Below are positions 12,856 through 20,761 of a DNA stretch of 20,761 nucleotides, in pieces. The stretch lies in IMG/VR virus record IMGVR_UViG_3300022752_000467, positions 1 through 20,761 of that record; one strand, 5' to 3'. Under the pieces are notes generated by a model. That model saw only the letters and a list, made by a program, of their open reading frames with translations, had not been told where the DNA came from and searched no databases. A program made the translations under genes and the position numbers. Numbering within the stretch: the first letter of the stretch is position 1; each line of letters begins with the position of its first letter. Source of the DNA: a virus.

Positions 12856-13677
12856 TTACTCCGCAATCTGGACTTCATAGACACCAGTCGTGTCGATGAG
12901 AACGGAACCTTGGCTCATGCTCGAAGTGATGAGGTTCGAAGCACGCTCCGGCACATAGTTGACTTCCGTCTGGACATCTTGTGCAGATGCAAGACCAGCA
13001 GCCGAACGATGATAAGCGAAGCACTTGCGGATCGTCGAAGCAATCGGGAGACCCGAGTGCGTCATCCACATGAAGCCGAGCCAACGCTTGGCAACCATGC
13101 CGCCCTTGTAGGGAAGGTCATCATAGCCAATGAAGTCAGCATCCGAGAACGCTGAAATGCCGAGAAGATCAACCCAGCCAGCTGGCGAAACAACGAAGTA
13201 ACGCTCACCATCATCAGGAATATCCTGATTGCCGAAGTATTCGAACACCGTATTGATCTTGGTTGAGGTCAAGCCGTTCGTGCTTGCTTCCGTGATCGTG
13301 TTCGATGTCGAGTCAAGGGTCGTGATGATAAGATCATCAGACTTACGACCGAGCGAGTTAGCAGCCGACTGAGCTACGATCTGACGCTCATCAATGTTGA
13401 TCTTGAGTTCGTCAAGTTTATCAACATAGTCCGCAGCGTAGTAGTCAGAGAGCGTGCACTCTACGTTTGTGTGGTCAAGAGACATCACGGGAACTGCACC
13501 GTGACGTGATTTTTGTGAAGCGGCACCCTTACCAACCTTCTGGAAGGTGGTCGAAGAACCGTTTACGTTGCCCTTAAAGCGAACGGTGTTGCGCAATTTG
13601 GATCCAGCACGTTGATAAGCAACGTGAACCTCGGATTCAAACTGCTTGATAAAAGCCTGATCAATGGTCAATGCCAT
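12856..13677 (-). CDS. Major capsid protein
   Basis: The product is 273 residues from the ATG at 13677, which has a good GGAG site six bases upstream; an in-frame TTG at 13689 lies on that ribosome site and is rejected. The sequence shows coat-protein features of the HK97-fold type: an N-terminal helix (IDQAFIKQFESEVHVAYQRA), strand and loop segments with SSTTFQKVGKG, a spine-helix-like DKLDELKINIDERQIVAQSAANSLGRKSDDLII (about residues 84-117), RYFVVSPAGWVDLLG, and a C-terminal beta end. It follows scaffold and precedes a small head protein. At 273 residues it is compact compared with the T7 gp10A length of about 345. Its own upstream gap and downstream terminator suggest separate control for high output. 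Confidence 0.85.
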   Translation of the reverse strand: MALTIDQAFIKQFESEVHVAYQRAGSKLRNTVRFKGNVNGSSTTFQKVGKGAASQKSRHGAVPVMSLDHTNVECTLSDYYAADYVDKLDELKINIDERQIVAQSAANSLGRKSDDLIITTLDSTSNTITEASTNGLTSTKINTVFEYFGNQDIPDDGERYFVVSPAGWVDLLGISAFSDADFIGYDDLPYKGGMVAKRWLGFMWMTHSGLPIASTIRKCFAYHRSAAGLASAQDVQTEVNYVPERASNLITSSMSQGSVLIDTTGVYEVQIAE

Positions 13678-13805
13678 GATATACTCCAACAGTTTGGTTT
13701 CAGATTGGTTCCAAGGTTATCCATATTGCTTTGCAAGTTATCCGTTAGGGCTTGCGCTGACAGATACGGGCCTCGACCCACGATTCTTATTAATTACCTA
13801 TAGAT
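13678..13805 (-). promoter_or_regulatory. Leader region of the capsid gene with operator-like repeats
   Basis: This 128-base gap is the longest between confident genes in the structural block downstream of TerL. On the plus strand GTTATCC occurs at 13716-13722 and again at 13737-13743, exactly 21 bases apart (two helical turns). The palindrome TTGC-TTT-GCAA (13726-13736) lies between them. The far end contains CTATAGG (minus strand, just after the acetyltransferase stop), resembling the core of T7-type phage promoters, but no full match or convincing -35/-10 pair was found. A promoter for the capsid cassette here is likely by analogy with T7 but not shown. Confidence 0.4.
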
Positions 13806-15007: not shown

Positions 15008-15269
15008 TTTGTCCTCTCAGGATACGTTGCTCAATAAGACCGACGAGGAATCTCATTCCTTCGCGGTGGAATAATTCATTTGGATTGATATTGGGACCGC
15101 TTACGGACTCAATAGTTATAGATCGCAGATAACGCAATGCCTCTTTCCCTCCTTGACTGGAAAAGATACCTGCCATCAATTTGTTTAACTCGTCCTCTTT
15201 TTCGGGCGAACGAGTAATCCCGTCAGGCCCCAGCACTAGGGGGCGTTTGTTGACCGCCAAGTTGACCAC
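14991..15269 (-). CDS. Small protein between portal and scaffold, unknown function
   Basis: The frame encodes up to 92 residues from a GTG at 15269, overlapping the portal C-terminus by 47 bases in a different frame. A TTG at 15260 with GGTGG upstream, or a later GTG, are alternative starts, so the N-terminus is uncertain. The body (LVLGPDGITRSPEKEDELNKLMAGIF, then EALRYLRSITIESVSGPNINPNELFHREGMRFLVGLIEQRI) is helical with mixed charge and does not look like shadow coding. Small proteins in this slot are common in podoviruses with this gene order. No function is known to me. Confidence 0.7.
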   Translation of the reverse strand: MVNLAVNKRPLVLGPDGITRSPEKEDELNKLMAGIFSSQGGKEALRYLRSITIESVSGPNINPNELFHREGMRFLVGLIEQRILRGQNGSGN

Positions 15270-16791
15270 CCATTTGTTGCGTCAGCTGGTTCAAAAGCTG
15301 CGCTCTCTCCTCATTTGAACGAAGTAACCGCTCCGGAATACCAAACTTATCCGAAAGATACTTAGCGGCCTCTTCAGTTTTGACAAGCATATTGACCAAC
15401 TGGGGTCCAAAACGAAGCCCAAGCATTTCGATATACCGATCAAACGACACAATATCCTGTTGCTGCTGCGCCTGTGCCAGAGGCGAAGATGAACGAACCT
15501 TTATCTCACGACCATTGACGGTCGGGATCGAGATGCGACCCTGCTTCTTGAGGATATAGATTACACGACGAAGGACAGGATTGATCAACTCGGCTTGCAA
15601 GCGACCAAAGGCTGCACCAATCTGGCGGGACAGATCAGCCATACGCTGGCTAACTTCTGTCGCACTCATCGGAGTTTTATCCGGATTGCCAAGCATATCA
15701 TTATACAAGGCCTTGCGGATATTCATACGCATATCGGTAAGAACCAACTGGGCGACATCAAAGTTACCAGTCGCCGTCACGTTCTTCAAACCAGAAGAGC
15801 CTGGAGCAATTGGGATTAAAGTCCCAGGAACAATTTGAATTGTATCTACATTGATGACACCATCGTCCTCAATTTGATACAGACCTGAGATCGCCATCTG
15901 CGCGTTCTCAAGAATCAACTGCACCGTCAAGTTACATGTTTTGATTGCTGGCATGGCATTAAGAAGTGGGCCACGACCATAGACTTCACCTGCCGCCTTC
16001 GACCAACGGAACGGCACAAACGGGTTAGAGCCAGTGCCCGTATAAGTTTCTTGGTAGAAAAGATCCTTGGAAACAGGATCAAACACCATCCGTTGATAGC
16101 GTTCTTCCATAGAACCATAGACGCGATAGGTGCAATCGATCAGGTTAAGCTGGGCATCTTTGCCAGTGTTCAGATCAATCTCCAGCTTTACTGGCAGTTT
16201 TGCCTTTGGATAAGCAATCTTGATCTTGCTTGCACGGAGTTTGCGCTCACGGAATACGGCATCAATCTGATCATCCGGACCAACGTCAACATAAAGTTGG
16301 GTCAATGGGATCGAGGTGAACATAATTGGATTGAGAGCATCGCCCTCAGTAATCTGCAAGCAGCCAGTGCCAATACCAAGATCCAAGAAACTCTCATGGA
16401 CTTCTTGGGAGAAGTTGGAGTTCTGGATAATCTCGAAGATGTAGTTGGTCACTTCTTCAAGCGACTGGTCTACTTCGCTACGCTGATCTTGCGGGATCTC
16501 AGAACCTGAAACAAGTTCGGCCCAACGTGCATAGTTGGGAACGAGACCGGACTGAAGACGGGAAGCAAACTCTTGAAGACCAACAACAGCTGTCTCGTCG
16601 AAAATCTTGTCAGTCTTTGTCTGACCTTGTTCTTCAGCGTAGAAACTTTCGCGCTGCGGGAAAGCATATTCGTAGCACTCCTCAAACTTGGGAGTCCACA
16701 AATCCTTAATGTGTTTTGCCCGACGAAATCTCTCTGTCAGTGATTCGACAGAGAAATTGTCTACGGGTATAACTTGCTCATCAAGAGCCAT
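15223..16791 (-). CDS. Portal protein (head-to-tail connector)
   Basis: The 522-residue product matches the T7 gp8-type head-tail connector family in length and pattern. RFRRAKHIKDLWTPKFEECYEYAFPQRESFY lies near residues 21-52, followed by KIFDETAVVGLQEFASRLQSGLVPNYARWAELV (63-95), the conserved core seen in this family. LLNAMPAIKTCNLTVQLILENAQMA and the MSATEVSQRMADLSRQIGAAFGRLQAELI segment are further hallmarks. The C-terminus is Gln/Gly-rich. Portals form the dodecamer at one capsid vertex through which the terminase pumps DNA. The ATG overlaps the stop of the preceding small gene by one base (TAATG), giving translational coupling. Confidence 0.93.
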   Translation of the reverse strand: MALDEQVIPVDNFSVESLTERFRRAKHIKDLWTPKFEECYEYAFPQRESFYAEEQGQTKTDKIFDETAVVGLQEFASRLQSGLVPNYARWAELVSGSEIPQDQRSEVDQSLEEVTNYIFEIIQNSNFSQEVHESFLDLGIGTGCLQITEGDALNPIMFTSIPLTQLYVDVGPDDQIDAVFRERKLRASKIKIAYPKAKLPVKLEIDLNTGKDAQLNLIDCTYRVYGSMEERYQRMVFDPVSKDLFYQETYTGTGSNPFVPFRWSKAAGEVYGRGPLLNAMPAIKTCNLTVQLILENAQMAISGLYQIEDDGVINVDTIQIVPGTLIPIAPGSSGLKNVTATGNFDVAQLVLTDMRMNIRKALYNDMLGNPDKTPMSATEVSQRMADLSRQIGAAFGRLQAELINPVLRRVIYILKKQGRISIPTVNGREIKVRSSSPLAQAQQQQDIVSFDRYIEMLGLRFGPQLVNMLVKTEEAAKYLSDKFGIPERLLRSNEERAQLLNQLTQQMGGQLGGQQTPPSAGA

Positions 16792-17080: not shown

Positions 17081-18601
17081 TTACAATGCACTTACGCGCC
17101 GCTTCGGACTAAAAGGTTTCCTTGTGAACACATCAAAGTCCTTACGAGCTTGGACTGGTTTGCTTGTTTTGCCACCCATTGTCAATGCCCGTCCCTCCCC
17201 GCCACCAATCATGGCATATTGCAGCGCGTCATGGATATGGGAATATTTGTTCTTTTCCGGCTTGTCCTCGTAGCGTTCGGCACCGGAGATCTGCATCCGG
17301 CGGTAGCCATAGCCACCACGGAAACCTTTGATCAGGTTCACGCACCGACTATCAATGAGCAGACCAGCCTGACCATCAACCAGTCTATTCAATGGAGCAG
17401 ATACGGCCTCGATGCGGAGTGAGACATCGTTATTCCCAGCGGGATAAGCCTTGATCCCAGCTGATCGAAGGATCTGAAACGGGGTGCGCTCATCGGTTTG
17501 GGCGCGGTAATCACCAGCCGGATCACCATAAATCATGTATTGTTGGTTAGGGAACCGCATGGCAAGGTCGCGTTTGAGGGCTTCCGTGAACCGCGTGATG
17601 CCCATGTCCTCTGCCACCAACTCGCCAAGAATCAACCATTTGCCACGGATATTCTGGCAATAGGCTGCCGCAGGGGTCAAACCAAAGTCCAGACCAACAA
17701 TGATCGGGACATTCGGAACGGGAAGCAGCGGCTCCTTGGCAATATGAACATCTTCGTTGAACATATGATAGACTGGCTTTCCGTCATTGAGGCTGCCAAG
17801 GCGGTTCATAACATAGACATTGATCCAGCCACGGGACTTACCCTTGATGATGTCCTCGTAGTAGTTACCAATGGTGTTCTTACGGTTCTCGGCTTCGGGA
17901 TTCTTGGTGTATCCGGTCAACTCTCCATCATTATCTTTGACTTCGGACAGGCCAGCTGGCTGATTGAAGAACTTCCATGTGTCTGGTTTTACCAACATCA
18001 GGGCTTCTTCGCGGCTGATATGATCCGGCAATGGACTTTCACCAGCCATGATAGGCCACCAATGGTCCTCATCTGGGGCGTTCGTATCAGCAATAACTCC
18101 ATACCAAGACGGGCCGCCATCTCTCATTGAGGGATAACGACCAACGCGCATGGTGCAAGCATCAACGATTGACTTTGGAAACTCTCTGGCCTCGTTCAGC
18201 CAGATGCCAGTCAACTCCAAAGACAGGAGCTTCTTGACATCTTCCGGCCTATCAAGCGCAAGGAAGATGACTTCCAAGTCAACATCTCCGCGCTTCAATC
18301 GATGAGTATAGGGAGGCGGATGCCAGAGCATCTTGCCCCAGACATCCTCCGGAAACCAGTCGAGCCATGTCTTTATGGTTGTGGTTCTCAACTGCGGATA
18401 GGAGTTACGGACAATGGCCCACCGAGAATGGCGAATATTATCTGGCCCCTTCTGCTGCTGTAACGCGCGGCGGAACACCTCAACCGCGCATCCGACCGAC
18501 TTTCCACTACCTACCGGACCACGAAGACCCCTGAAAAAGGAGTCATCCTTCATGAACGCCTTGAGCGTTTCACCATCCGGCTTGTAGTTGAACTTAACCA
18601 A
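17081..18601 (-). CDS. Terminase large subunit (packaging ATPase and nuclease)
   Basis: The 506-residue product has a full terminase layout. Walker A is GPVGSGKS (residues 28-35), Walker B lies in TGIWLNEARE (131-140) with the catalytic Glu, and the coupling motif is ADTN (171-174). The RNase H-like nuclease domain has acidic sites in GLDFG (Asp305), GDPAGD (359-364) and HDALQYA (Asp458). It pumps DNA into proheads through the portal and cuts concatemers. The start is unusual: a TTG at 18601 is immediately preceded by an in-frame TGA, and the next ATG (residue 17) would delete the KPDGETLKAFM segment just before Walker A that is normal for the family. The gene overlaps the previous one by eight bases. 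Confidence 0.95.
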   Translation of the reverse strand: MVKFNYKPDGETLKAFMKDDSFFRGLRGPVGSGKSVGCAVEVFRRALQQQKGPDNIRHSRWAIVRNSYPQLRTTTIKTWLDWFPEDVWGKMLWHPPPYTHRLKRGDVDLEVIFLALDRPEDVKKLLSLELTGIWLNEAREFPKSIVDACTMRVGRYPSMRDGGPSWYGVIADTNAPDEDHWWPIMAGESPLPDHISREEALMLVKPDTWKFFNQPAGLSEVKDNDGELTGYTKNPEAENRKNTIGNYYEDIIKGKSRGWINVYVMNRLGSLNDGKPVYHMFNEDVHIAKEPLLPVPNVPIIVGLDFGLTPAAAYCQNIRGKWLILGELVAEDMGITRFTEALKRDLAMRFPNQQYMIYGDPAGDYRAQTDERTPFQILRSAGIKAYPAGNNDVSLRIEAVSAPLNRLVDGQAGLLIDSRCVNLIKGFRGGYGYRRMQISGAERYEDKPEKNKYSHIHDALQYAMIGGGEGRALTMGGKTSKPVQARKDFDVFTRKPFSPKRRVSAL

Positions 18602-19655: not shown

Positions 19656-19900
19656 CAAGATTTCTCCAAATTCCAATTACTGCCAGCAGCTATCACGCAA
19701 GTCCGACCATCCGGCTCAACAGATGTCAAAGTCCAACTTTGAGGACCTCGATAAAATTGTAAAGCCAATTTATTATCAACCATAATCGGAGACTGAGGCT
19801 CTTCGCTGTATTCTCTCAAAAGATTCTCAGCAATCAAAGATCTATCAAGGCAAAAATGCGGAGAAGCAAAAATAATAGAAGCCAGAAGAATCTCATTCAT
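19655..19900 (-). CDS. Small putative secreted protein
   Basis: The product is 81 residues from the ATG at 19900, with AAGG eight bases upstream; a longer reading from 19972 has no such signal. A hydrophobic N-terminus (ILLASIIFASPHFC) is followed by DRSLIAENLLREYSEEPQ, then LALQFYRGPQSWTLTSVEPDGRTCVIAAGSNW. This resembles a small periplasmic family common in Alphaproteobacteria, with a signal peptide, a Cys near the mature start, an L-x-x-x-Y-x-E helix and a W-T-x-T...G-x-T-C-x-x-A-x-G-x-x-W core. The two Cys could form a disulfide. The start lacks the usual positive residues, so export is uncertain. It lies between the terminase subunits. The role is unknown. Confidence 0.65.
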   Translation of the reverse strand: MNEILLASIIFASPHFCLDRSLIAENLLREYSEEPQSPIMVDNKLALQFYRGPQSWTLTSVEPDGRTCVIAAGSNWNLEKS

Positions 19901-20060
19901 GACCAGAACCTTTCTGGTGGGAGCACCCCACAAGGGGGAAAATATTTTAAACCCTTTGTTGCGGAAATGCACCGAACCTTGGAGGGGAAAAATACTTGTA
20001 GAGGTGATCTCGTAATGAGTGACTGGACATTTTTGACCCCCCTATCCAGTTATCCACAAC
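19901..20060. other. Intergenic region with purine-rich near-repeats
   Basis: This 160-base gap follows the small terminase gene. On the plus strand two similar purine-rich runs, AAGGGGGAAAATATT (from 19932) and GAGGGGAAAAATACTT (from 19982), lie about 50 bases apart. A minus-strand frame of 27 codons starts with ATG at 20030, six bases after GGGGGG, and stops at 19947; it is too short and unrecognised to call a gene. CCCC-TTGT-GGGG can form a small stem near 19928, without a T-run. Confidence 0.35.
20050..20058 (+). promoter_or_regulatory. DnaA-box-like site
   Basis: TTATCCACA is an exact match to the consensus bacterial DnaA box, and a second TTATCC begins eleven bases further on at 20061. 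One exact nine-mer in 20 kb may be chance. Function as a DnaA binding site is unproven. Confidence 0.3.
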
Positions 20061-20447
20061 TTATCCGAGATCAATACTAACCGAGAGATTACCGTCAACA
20101 CGGTGATCAATACGTTCAGCAGCTCGTAAACCTGCACGATCCAGCAAGTCACGGGACGCTTCTAACTGCACATATTCGGATTTAGCTTCAGTGCTGAGAC
20201 GTTCTATTGTTCTAAACGCTTTGGGTAATGAAGCACCGATAGCCAGAGTTGTTCGCTTGTATATCTCTTGGACAATCAATGGGTTACGAAGCAATCTACA
20301 CGCCTCAACATGTGCAGACTTTTCTGCGTAACCAGCCTCCTTTGCGGCTGCCGTTCCCTTACCACCATTCGCTACATACGCCTCGATGAACGTGTCTTGT
20401 TTGCGCGTTAGATTAGGGATTCCATCAGATACTTTGACTAGTGACAT
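20061..20447 (-). CDS. Terminase small subunit
   Basis: The 128-residue product has the small-terminase pattern. NLTRKQDTFIEAYVANGGKGTAAAKEAGYAEKSAHVEACRLLRNPLIVQEI (residues 12-62) contains the helix-turn-helix that recognises DNA (GTAAAKEAGY). A helical oligomerisation region and a short C-terminal tail (HRVDGNLSVSIDLG) follow, the latter likely contacting the large subunit. It selects phage DNA for packaging and regulates the motor. The ATG at 20447 has a weak GAGA site; the product is of normal length. As the first gene of the late block in this window it may be transcribed from the promoter-like sequence just upstream. Confidence 0.88.
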   Translation of the reverse strand: MSLVKVSDGIPNLTRKQDTFIEAYVANGGKGTAAAKEAGYAEKSAHVEACRLLRNPLIVQEIYKRTTLAIGASLPKAFRTIERLSTEAKSEYVQLEASRDLLDRAGLRAAERIDHRVDGNLSVSIDLG

Positions 20448-20472
20448 ACTACAATCTCAAACCCGAGGGGGA

Positions 20473-20503
20473 TAGATAAGGGGGAGTTGCATAACCATGT
20501 CAA
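20473..20503 (-). promoter_or_regulatory. Possible sigma70-type promoter for the packaging operon
   Basis: On the minus strand an exact -35 hexamer TTGACA (20503-20498) is followed by a poor -10 (TATCTA, 20478-20473) with a 19-base spacer, 25 bases before the small terminase start. The spacer is long and the -10 weak, so the site is tentative. A phage-specific promoter elsewhere in the gap is equally possible. Confidence 0.3.
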
Positions 20504-20643
20504 GTGCACTTAATACAATCATTCCTAAGATCCTCGGCATTATGCCTCGGGATGTCTCGAATCAAGCGACGCAGAACCTACTAACTTTGCACTTAATTTT
20601 GCACGGTCGCTCGATACTCGATTATTACTTCCTCGACTACTAA
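20497..20643 (+). CDS. Possible small divergent gene (48 codons)
   Basis: A plus-strand frame runs from ATG at 20497 to TAA at 20641, encoding MSSALNTIIPKILGIMPRDV and a hydrophobic, Leu-rich remainder that ends YYFLDY. AGGGGGAG lies ten bases before the ATG, a passable ribosome site. No family is recognised. It opposes every other gene and overlaps the promoter-like TTGACA of the minus strand, so it may well be chance. Confidence 0.2.
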   Translation: MSSALNTIIPKILGIMPRDVSNQATQNLLTLHLILHGRSILDYYFLDY

Positions 20644-20761
20644 CATGGTAAGCAGGTCGACGCACTGTAAGTCAACCCCGTAAAGGGGTAGCCTCGTTGG
20701 TAAAGCCAAGGTTTGTCTTTTATTTCGATAGTTCGAATAAGGACTTCAAATCCTCGCGTTA

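Follow-up and report, generated by a model that had tools for sequence, protein, structure and literature searches.

A putative early/late junction in a marine podovirus contig, with a conserved late-start-like site carrying an unusual run pair

Judging from its sequence and those of its relatives, the noncoding DNA in front of the small terminase subunit gene (TerS) of a marine podovirus appears to be where early and late genes meet, and a conserved site there, with an unusual pair of homopolymer runs, probably starts late transcription. On balance we favor a reading in which this is a divergent early/late control region whose TerS-proximal 50 bp would start the late operon, with the run pair tuning that start. 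The run pair itself is best read as a putative accessory element in the late-operon start site. What we observe directly is the position of the site, its conservation and spacing, and the strand bias of a related motif.

Results

The window, by which we mean the whole stretch of DNA analyzed, is an entire virus record of 20,761 bp. The large open reading frames (ORFs) that we identified lie on the minus strand throughout, and TerS opens the packaging/structural operon (Table 1); a Pfam search of TerL gave no match. The 314 bp that separate the TerS start from the end of the contig (20448-20761) are noncoding and lie 5' of TerS. The original prediction held that no gene explains this region, and this is borne out: the ORF list has no frame of at least 60 aa there, ARAGORN found no tRNA, and the Rfam search returned no family close to threshold, and a tRNA or an Rfam structured RNA is rejected as the explanation. 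The placing upstream of the packaging operon is also correct, TerS being directly adjacent, and so is the suggested early/late control region, since three relatives (L002, L006, and L007) have a gene or operon that begins on the far side and runs on the opposite strand; we therefore take the region to be a divergent early/late junction. The window contig ends before the early genes, leaving the early operon outside it. TerL relatives (50-66%) also occur in contigs from MAGs (L416-L421), several of them labelled Alphaproteobacteria (Novosphingobium, Rhodobacterales, Kordiimonadaceae); these labels could be either a host hint or binning carry-over.

Table 1. Features of the window and of three cultured phages
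Feature	Coordinates	Strand	Basis
TerS (small terminase subunit), opens packaging/structural operon	20061-20447	-	Pfam Terminase_2, E 9.9e-13; ORF list
TerL	17081-18601	-	alignment to annotated TerL proteins of isolates
Head-tail connector	15223-16791	-	ORF list
Capsid protein	12856-13689	-	ORF list
TTGACA, -35-like hexamer	20498-20503	-	invariant in L002-L008
TATCTA, -10-like hexamer, 19 nt after TTGACA	20473-20478	-	3/6 to TATAAT
C5-N8-C5 run pair around -10-like hexamer	20467-20484	-	G5-N8-G5 on + strand
AAGTGCACTT, palindrome overlapping TTGACA	20502-20511	-	perfect in window
TCGA cluster, 7 copies, peculiar to window phage	20557-20736	.	shuffles and relatives
Block with hairpin ACCCC-TTTAC-GGGGT	20671-20702	-	91% identity over 33 columns to L005/L006
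Second conserved noncoding element, 3' of TerS: GGGGGGTCAAAAA ... ACAAGTATTTTTCCCCTCCAAGGTTCGG ... AAATATTTTCCCCC	19934-20042	-	
GGGGGAGGGGG in three cultured Cronobacter and Vibrio phages	L169 1249-1259, L171 3206-3216, L175 2929-2939		

The features that had first been noticed in this region fared unevenly. The seven TCGA in 180 bp are present, a count reached in none of 1,000 dinucleotide shuffles of the 314 bp (shuffle mean, 1.5), and the maximum in any other 180-bp stretch of the window is 4; the motif was chosen post hoc, after the cluster had been seen. The 314 bp before TerS contain seven copies in the window, none in any of L002-L007, and two in L008, so this most striking feature belongs to the window phage alone, and TCGA as a conserved operator is rejected. 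The 10-base direct repeat is there (TGCACTTAAT at 20505-20514 and 20588-20597) and mildly unusual, as 3.2% of shuffles hold an exact direct repeat of at least 10 bases; TTTGCAC does recur at a 12-base step, at 20586 and 20598. The claim of four inverted repeats in 80 bp did not survive, their frequency being no higher than chance: the 314 bp contain two inverted repeats with perfect 5-base arms (loop 3-12), versus a shuffle mean of 2.2, and none with perfect 6-base arms, versus 0.5. The hairpin ACCCC-TTTAC-GGGGT (20675-20689) is common to some relatives, and in L003/L004 the stem and loop of its block are altered. We rejected this block (AACGAGGCTACCCC) as a family-wide element: an exact scan returned 67 contigs, and those among them that we recognized as relatives were L003 plus the contigs carrying L004, L005, and L006. 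The original prediction had also proposed comparing the region among relatives; neither the TCGA cluster nor the hairpins proved conserved in that comparison, but a short site that had not been flagged did (20467-20511).

Eight close relatives were found by TerS (84-97% identity). DNA similarity to them starts past the TerS end, spans the gene, and is lost about 70 bp upstream of it. The sole shared piece further out is the 33-bp hairpin block, common to L003-L006, and the distal 240 bp are mostly unconserved. The conserved part is the TerS-proximal 50 bp, which on the TerS strand reads TTGACA, 13 bases, CCCCCTTATCTATCCCCC, and TCGGGTTT. The 18-base run-pair box occurs in a single copy in the window and is identical in L002-L007; a 17-base form of the pair, with up to three mismatches allowed, matches once in the window versus 0.02 expected. 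The palindrome AAGTGCACTT, which one copy of the 10-base direct repeat overlaps, is imperfect in most relatives. Every one of the 12 window-subfamily loci has TAT[AC]T[AT] exactly 19 nt from TTGACA, and this spacing is kept in L082, L084, L085, and L087 even though their C-runs are cut to one or lost.

As a sigma-70 promoter, the site has the expected -35 hexamer, while at 16-18 nt the window has no -10 near TATAAT (best, 3/6); its 19-nt spacer is long for sigma-70, and a consensus scan of 19900-20761 found no sigma-70 promoter. Because the -10 is lacking by this measure, we call the site promoter-like and not a sigma-70 promoter proper. In most relatives the first G-run falls just past the -10 position, at or close to where the transcript would be expected to begin, and the five bases preceding it are mostly A/T. 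A -10 of at least 4/6 at 16-18 nt was found in 42% of 72 G-clade sequences versus 18% of shuffles; these sequences were selected by TTGACA, the conservation of which is there partly by choice.

To place the site in a wider family, we collected 255 loci with TerS through TerS and TerL searches and reduced them to 133 representatives (<90% TerS nucleotide identity; both L252 and L328 were retained although they are the same contig). TerS starts are estimates from the query match. A G-run pair was defined as two G-runs of 5 to 8, 1 to 14 bases apart, on the TerS strand and within 320 bp. Such a pair is present in 88 of the 118 representatives with at least 100 bp before TerS, versus 10 in 990 kb elsewhere in the same loci, both strands counted. 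Six representatives have only a C-run pair (the window, L006, L002, and L008, with L009 and L341 as candidates), and 25 of the 118 have neither, including the isolate Hodr. The run strand is reversed in the window clade, which has C-runs and not G-runs on the late strand. Of the 93 representatives that have a G-run pair, 82 show TTGACA within 60 nt before the first G-run, and the distance is 22-26 nt in 72 of these. The 93 include L098, L123, and L124, whose contigs begin inside or past the TerS start and which were counted through the element after TerS, outside the 88 of 118. The distance from the pair to TerS ranges from about 0 to >200 nt; with a fixed TTGACA spacing and a variable TerS distance, the pair is tied to TTGACA and not to the gene start. 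The sequence between the G-runs is purine-rich and often reads identically in both directions (AACACAA, ACACA).

In 1.08 Mb, we counted 106 copies of a related motif, TTGTGCRTTG, on the late strand versus 6 on the opposite strand. It sits in late-strand gaps (in L155, for example, at -50, +462, +3516, and +6731 from TerS), and 22 of 71 distinct downstream sites fall in long open frames versus 61% of random late positions. It is likely a phage-specific late signal.

A second conserved noncoding element follows TerS. Its form is a G-run, TCAAAAA, about 28 bases, a CATTATT-like stretch, and AAAGGTTCG; with the G-run, TCAAAAA, and AAGGTTCG it is common to most relatives, and Hodr has a weaker form. 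A strict regular expression finds it in 83 of 126 representatives, and a relaxed one that includes the second part finds it in 73 of 125 versus 31 of 1,180 control segments, both expressions having been shaped on the same sequences they count. RNAalifold gave a consensus with no pairs for 82 sequences, and a conserved RNA fold is rejected for this element. Adjoining it at 20050-20058 (+) is a perfect TTATCCACA, the DnaA-box consensus; a single exact match of 9 bases in 20 kb carries little weight.

Discussion

In the reading we favor, host RNA polymerase would initiate at TTGACA-N19-TATCTA and transcribe TerS and the genes that follow. A phage helper probably assists it, because the -10 match is weak. 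The run pair would tune initiation, either as a protein-binding site or as a pause in early elongation, and the distal 240 bp may hold early-operon signals peculiar to the window phage. What we infer here is that the site is a promoter, that a helper takes part, and that the runs play a role.

The presence of a second run element after TerS keeps a different reading in contention, in which the run-pair sites flanking TerS form a terminase pac or cos site, with TerS binding the G-runs and TerL cutting nearby. We regard this as unlikely. The site adjoins TerS, and a pac or cos site would adjoin that gene or lie within it. G-runs of at least 5 crowd both sides of TerS, with 120 runs across 123 loci in the 50 bp that precede the gene and 101 across 133 loci in the 50 bp that follow, compared to 0-13 per 50-bp bin at >100 bp upstream. 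The 3' element is conserved in sequence and lacks a consensus RNA fold, which suggests a DNA site. Contig ends fall 0-99 bp 5' of TerS in 10 of 81 cases, about 3.6 times the mean bin (counted over 79 of the 80 rows of a first locus list, L222 being omitted since its locus is not at a contig end; a second list without L268, L301, L328, and four loci already counted; and 8 of the 21 rows of a third), and some contigs begin at the G-run itself. These 5' ends are nevertheless scattered over 200 bp, and one has a long poly-C, so that sequencing trouble at G-runs can account for the excess. At the 3' element there is no cluster (2 of 44 ends in 0-199 bp 3' of TerS, counted over L176-L338 without L222, L268, L301, and L328), and a fixed genome end there is rejected; contigs of about 33 kb are cut at many different points relative to the site, and the window clade has its runs on the reversed strand. 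We read the contig-end pattern as assembly trouble at G-runs together with a variable border, and a true genome end at the site is possible. One contig (L286, 1-52) opens with a long C run, apparently a sequencing or assembly artifact at the G-run site.

Paired G-runs directly after a promoter-like site also bring to mind a replication origin, in which transcription into the runs would leave behind an R-loop or G-quadruplex, and DNA synthesis would be primed from it. Such priming has been proposed for conserved sequence block II (CSB II) of human mitochondrial DNA (PMC5027508), and folding with quadruplex energies predicted a quadruplex in 60 of 90 5' sites. The same folding predicted none on either strand of the window's own site, where the late strand carries C-runs, and neither kind of pair is present in 25 of 118 relatives; we consider an origin here improbable. 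We hold equally doubtful the idea that the conserved pieces are module-junction leftovers, that is, a plain promoter with functionless homopolymer runs and a remainder of neutral spacer. Homology breaks do often fall at TTGACA: among 369 pairs of related loci (80-98% identity), homology begins 1-20 nt before it in 96, the commonest start, with many pairs running on beyond, and conservation extends neither to the TCGA cluster nor to most of the distal stretch of 240 bp. Homopolymers without function would be expected to decay, however, and G-run pairs are kept at a fixed TTGACA spacing in most of the family and are rare elsewhere. There is likewise only a slim chance that, in a large group of marine podoviruses, the paired G-run elements around TerS work together as a single DNA device that couples the late start to DNA processing. 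The G-runs would then be opened by transcription initiated at TTGACA, the opened strand (quadruplex or R-loop) would be recognized by packaging or replication machinery, and the window clade would carry the 5' part with its runs on the opposite strand.

If the site is indeed a late start with an accessory run pair, then a short noncoding site has been kept across an abundant marine podovirus group at the border of exchangeable gene modules. It marks the meeting point of the early and late genome halves and so offers a handle for locating that border in fragments. The sites flanking TerS are short and testable in isolates.

Among isolates, the one nearest to the window in TerL (63% identity) is Pelagibacter phage EXVC031P Hodr (OQ414635). 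Hodr resembles the window in having the GGGGTTCAAAAATC...AAGGTTCG element after TerS and TTGACA upstream of it, but it has no G- or C-run pair before TerS. In the more distant isolates Ss1, VA-RY-3, and PVA7 (TerL, 37-41%), the divergent gap contains GGGGGAGGGGG, with about 200-280 bp between it and the gene that precedes TerL. It is located apart from a promoter-like site, and the pair therefore need not be part of a promoter in those isolates. The terminase region of MEP301 has no G-run pair; MEP301 is reported as a circular contig, which does not define its ends. A literature search on the genome ends of BcepC6B found no paper. In the open-license literature searched, we recognized no report describing the run-pair element, and among the matches listed in an exact-letter search for TTGTGCGTTG, all were unrelated.

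CSB II has two G-runs separated by one base. Like those of the relatives' sites, its G-runs lie downstream of a promoter or promoter-like site, where they are reported to halt transcription via a hybrid quadruplex (PMC5027508). The window departs from CSB II in having no predicted quadruplex and C-runs on the late strand. In tailed phages, pac and cos sites can adjoin TerS genes, and the present site is similar in being conserved noncoding DNA beside TerS but dissimilar in having no defined termini, cutting site, or sharp contig-end position. Phage late promoters of the sigma-70 type occur at divergent early/late junctions. With these the site shares TTGACA, an A/T-rich hexamer 17-19 nt on, a position directly before the first late gene, and divergent genes behind it. 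It differs from them in its weak -10, in the long spacer of the window clade, and in the conserved G:C run pair at or next to the expected start.
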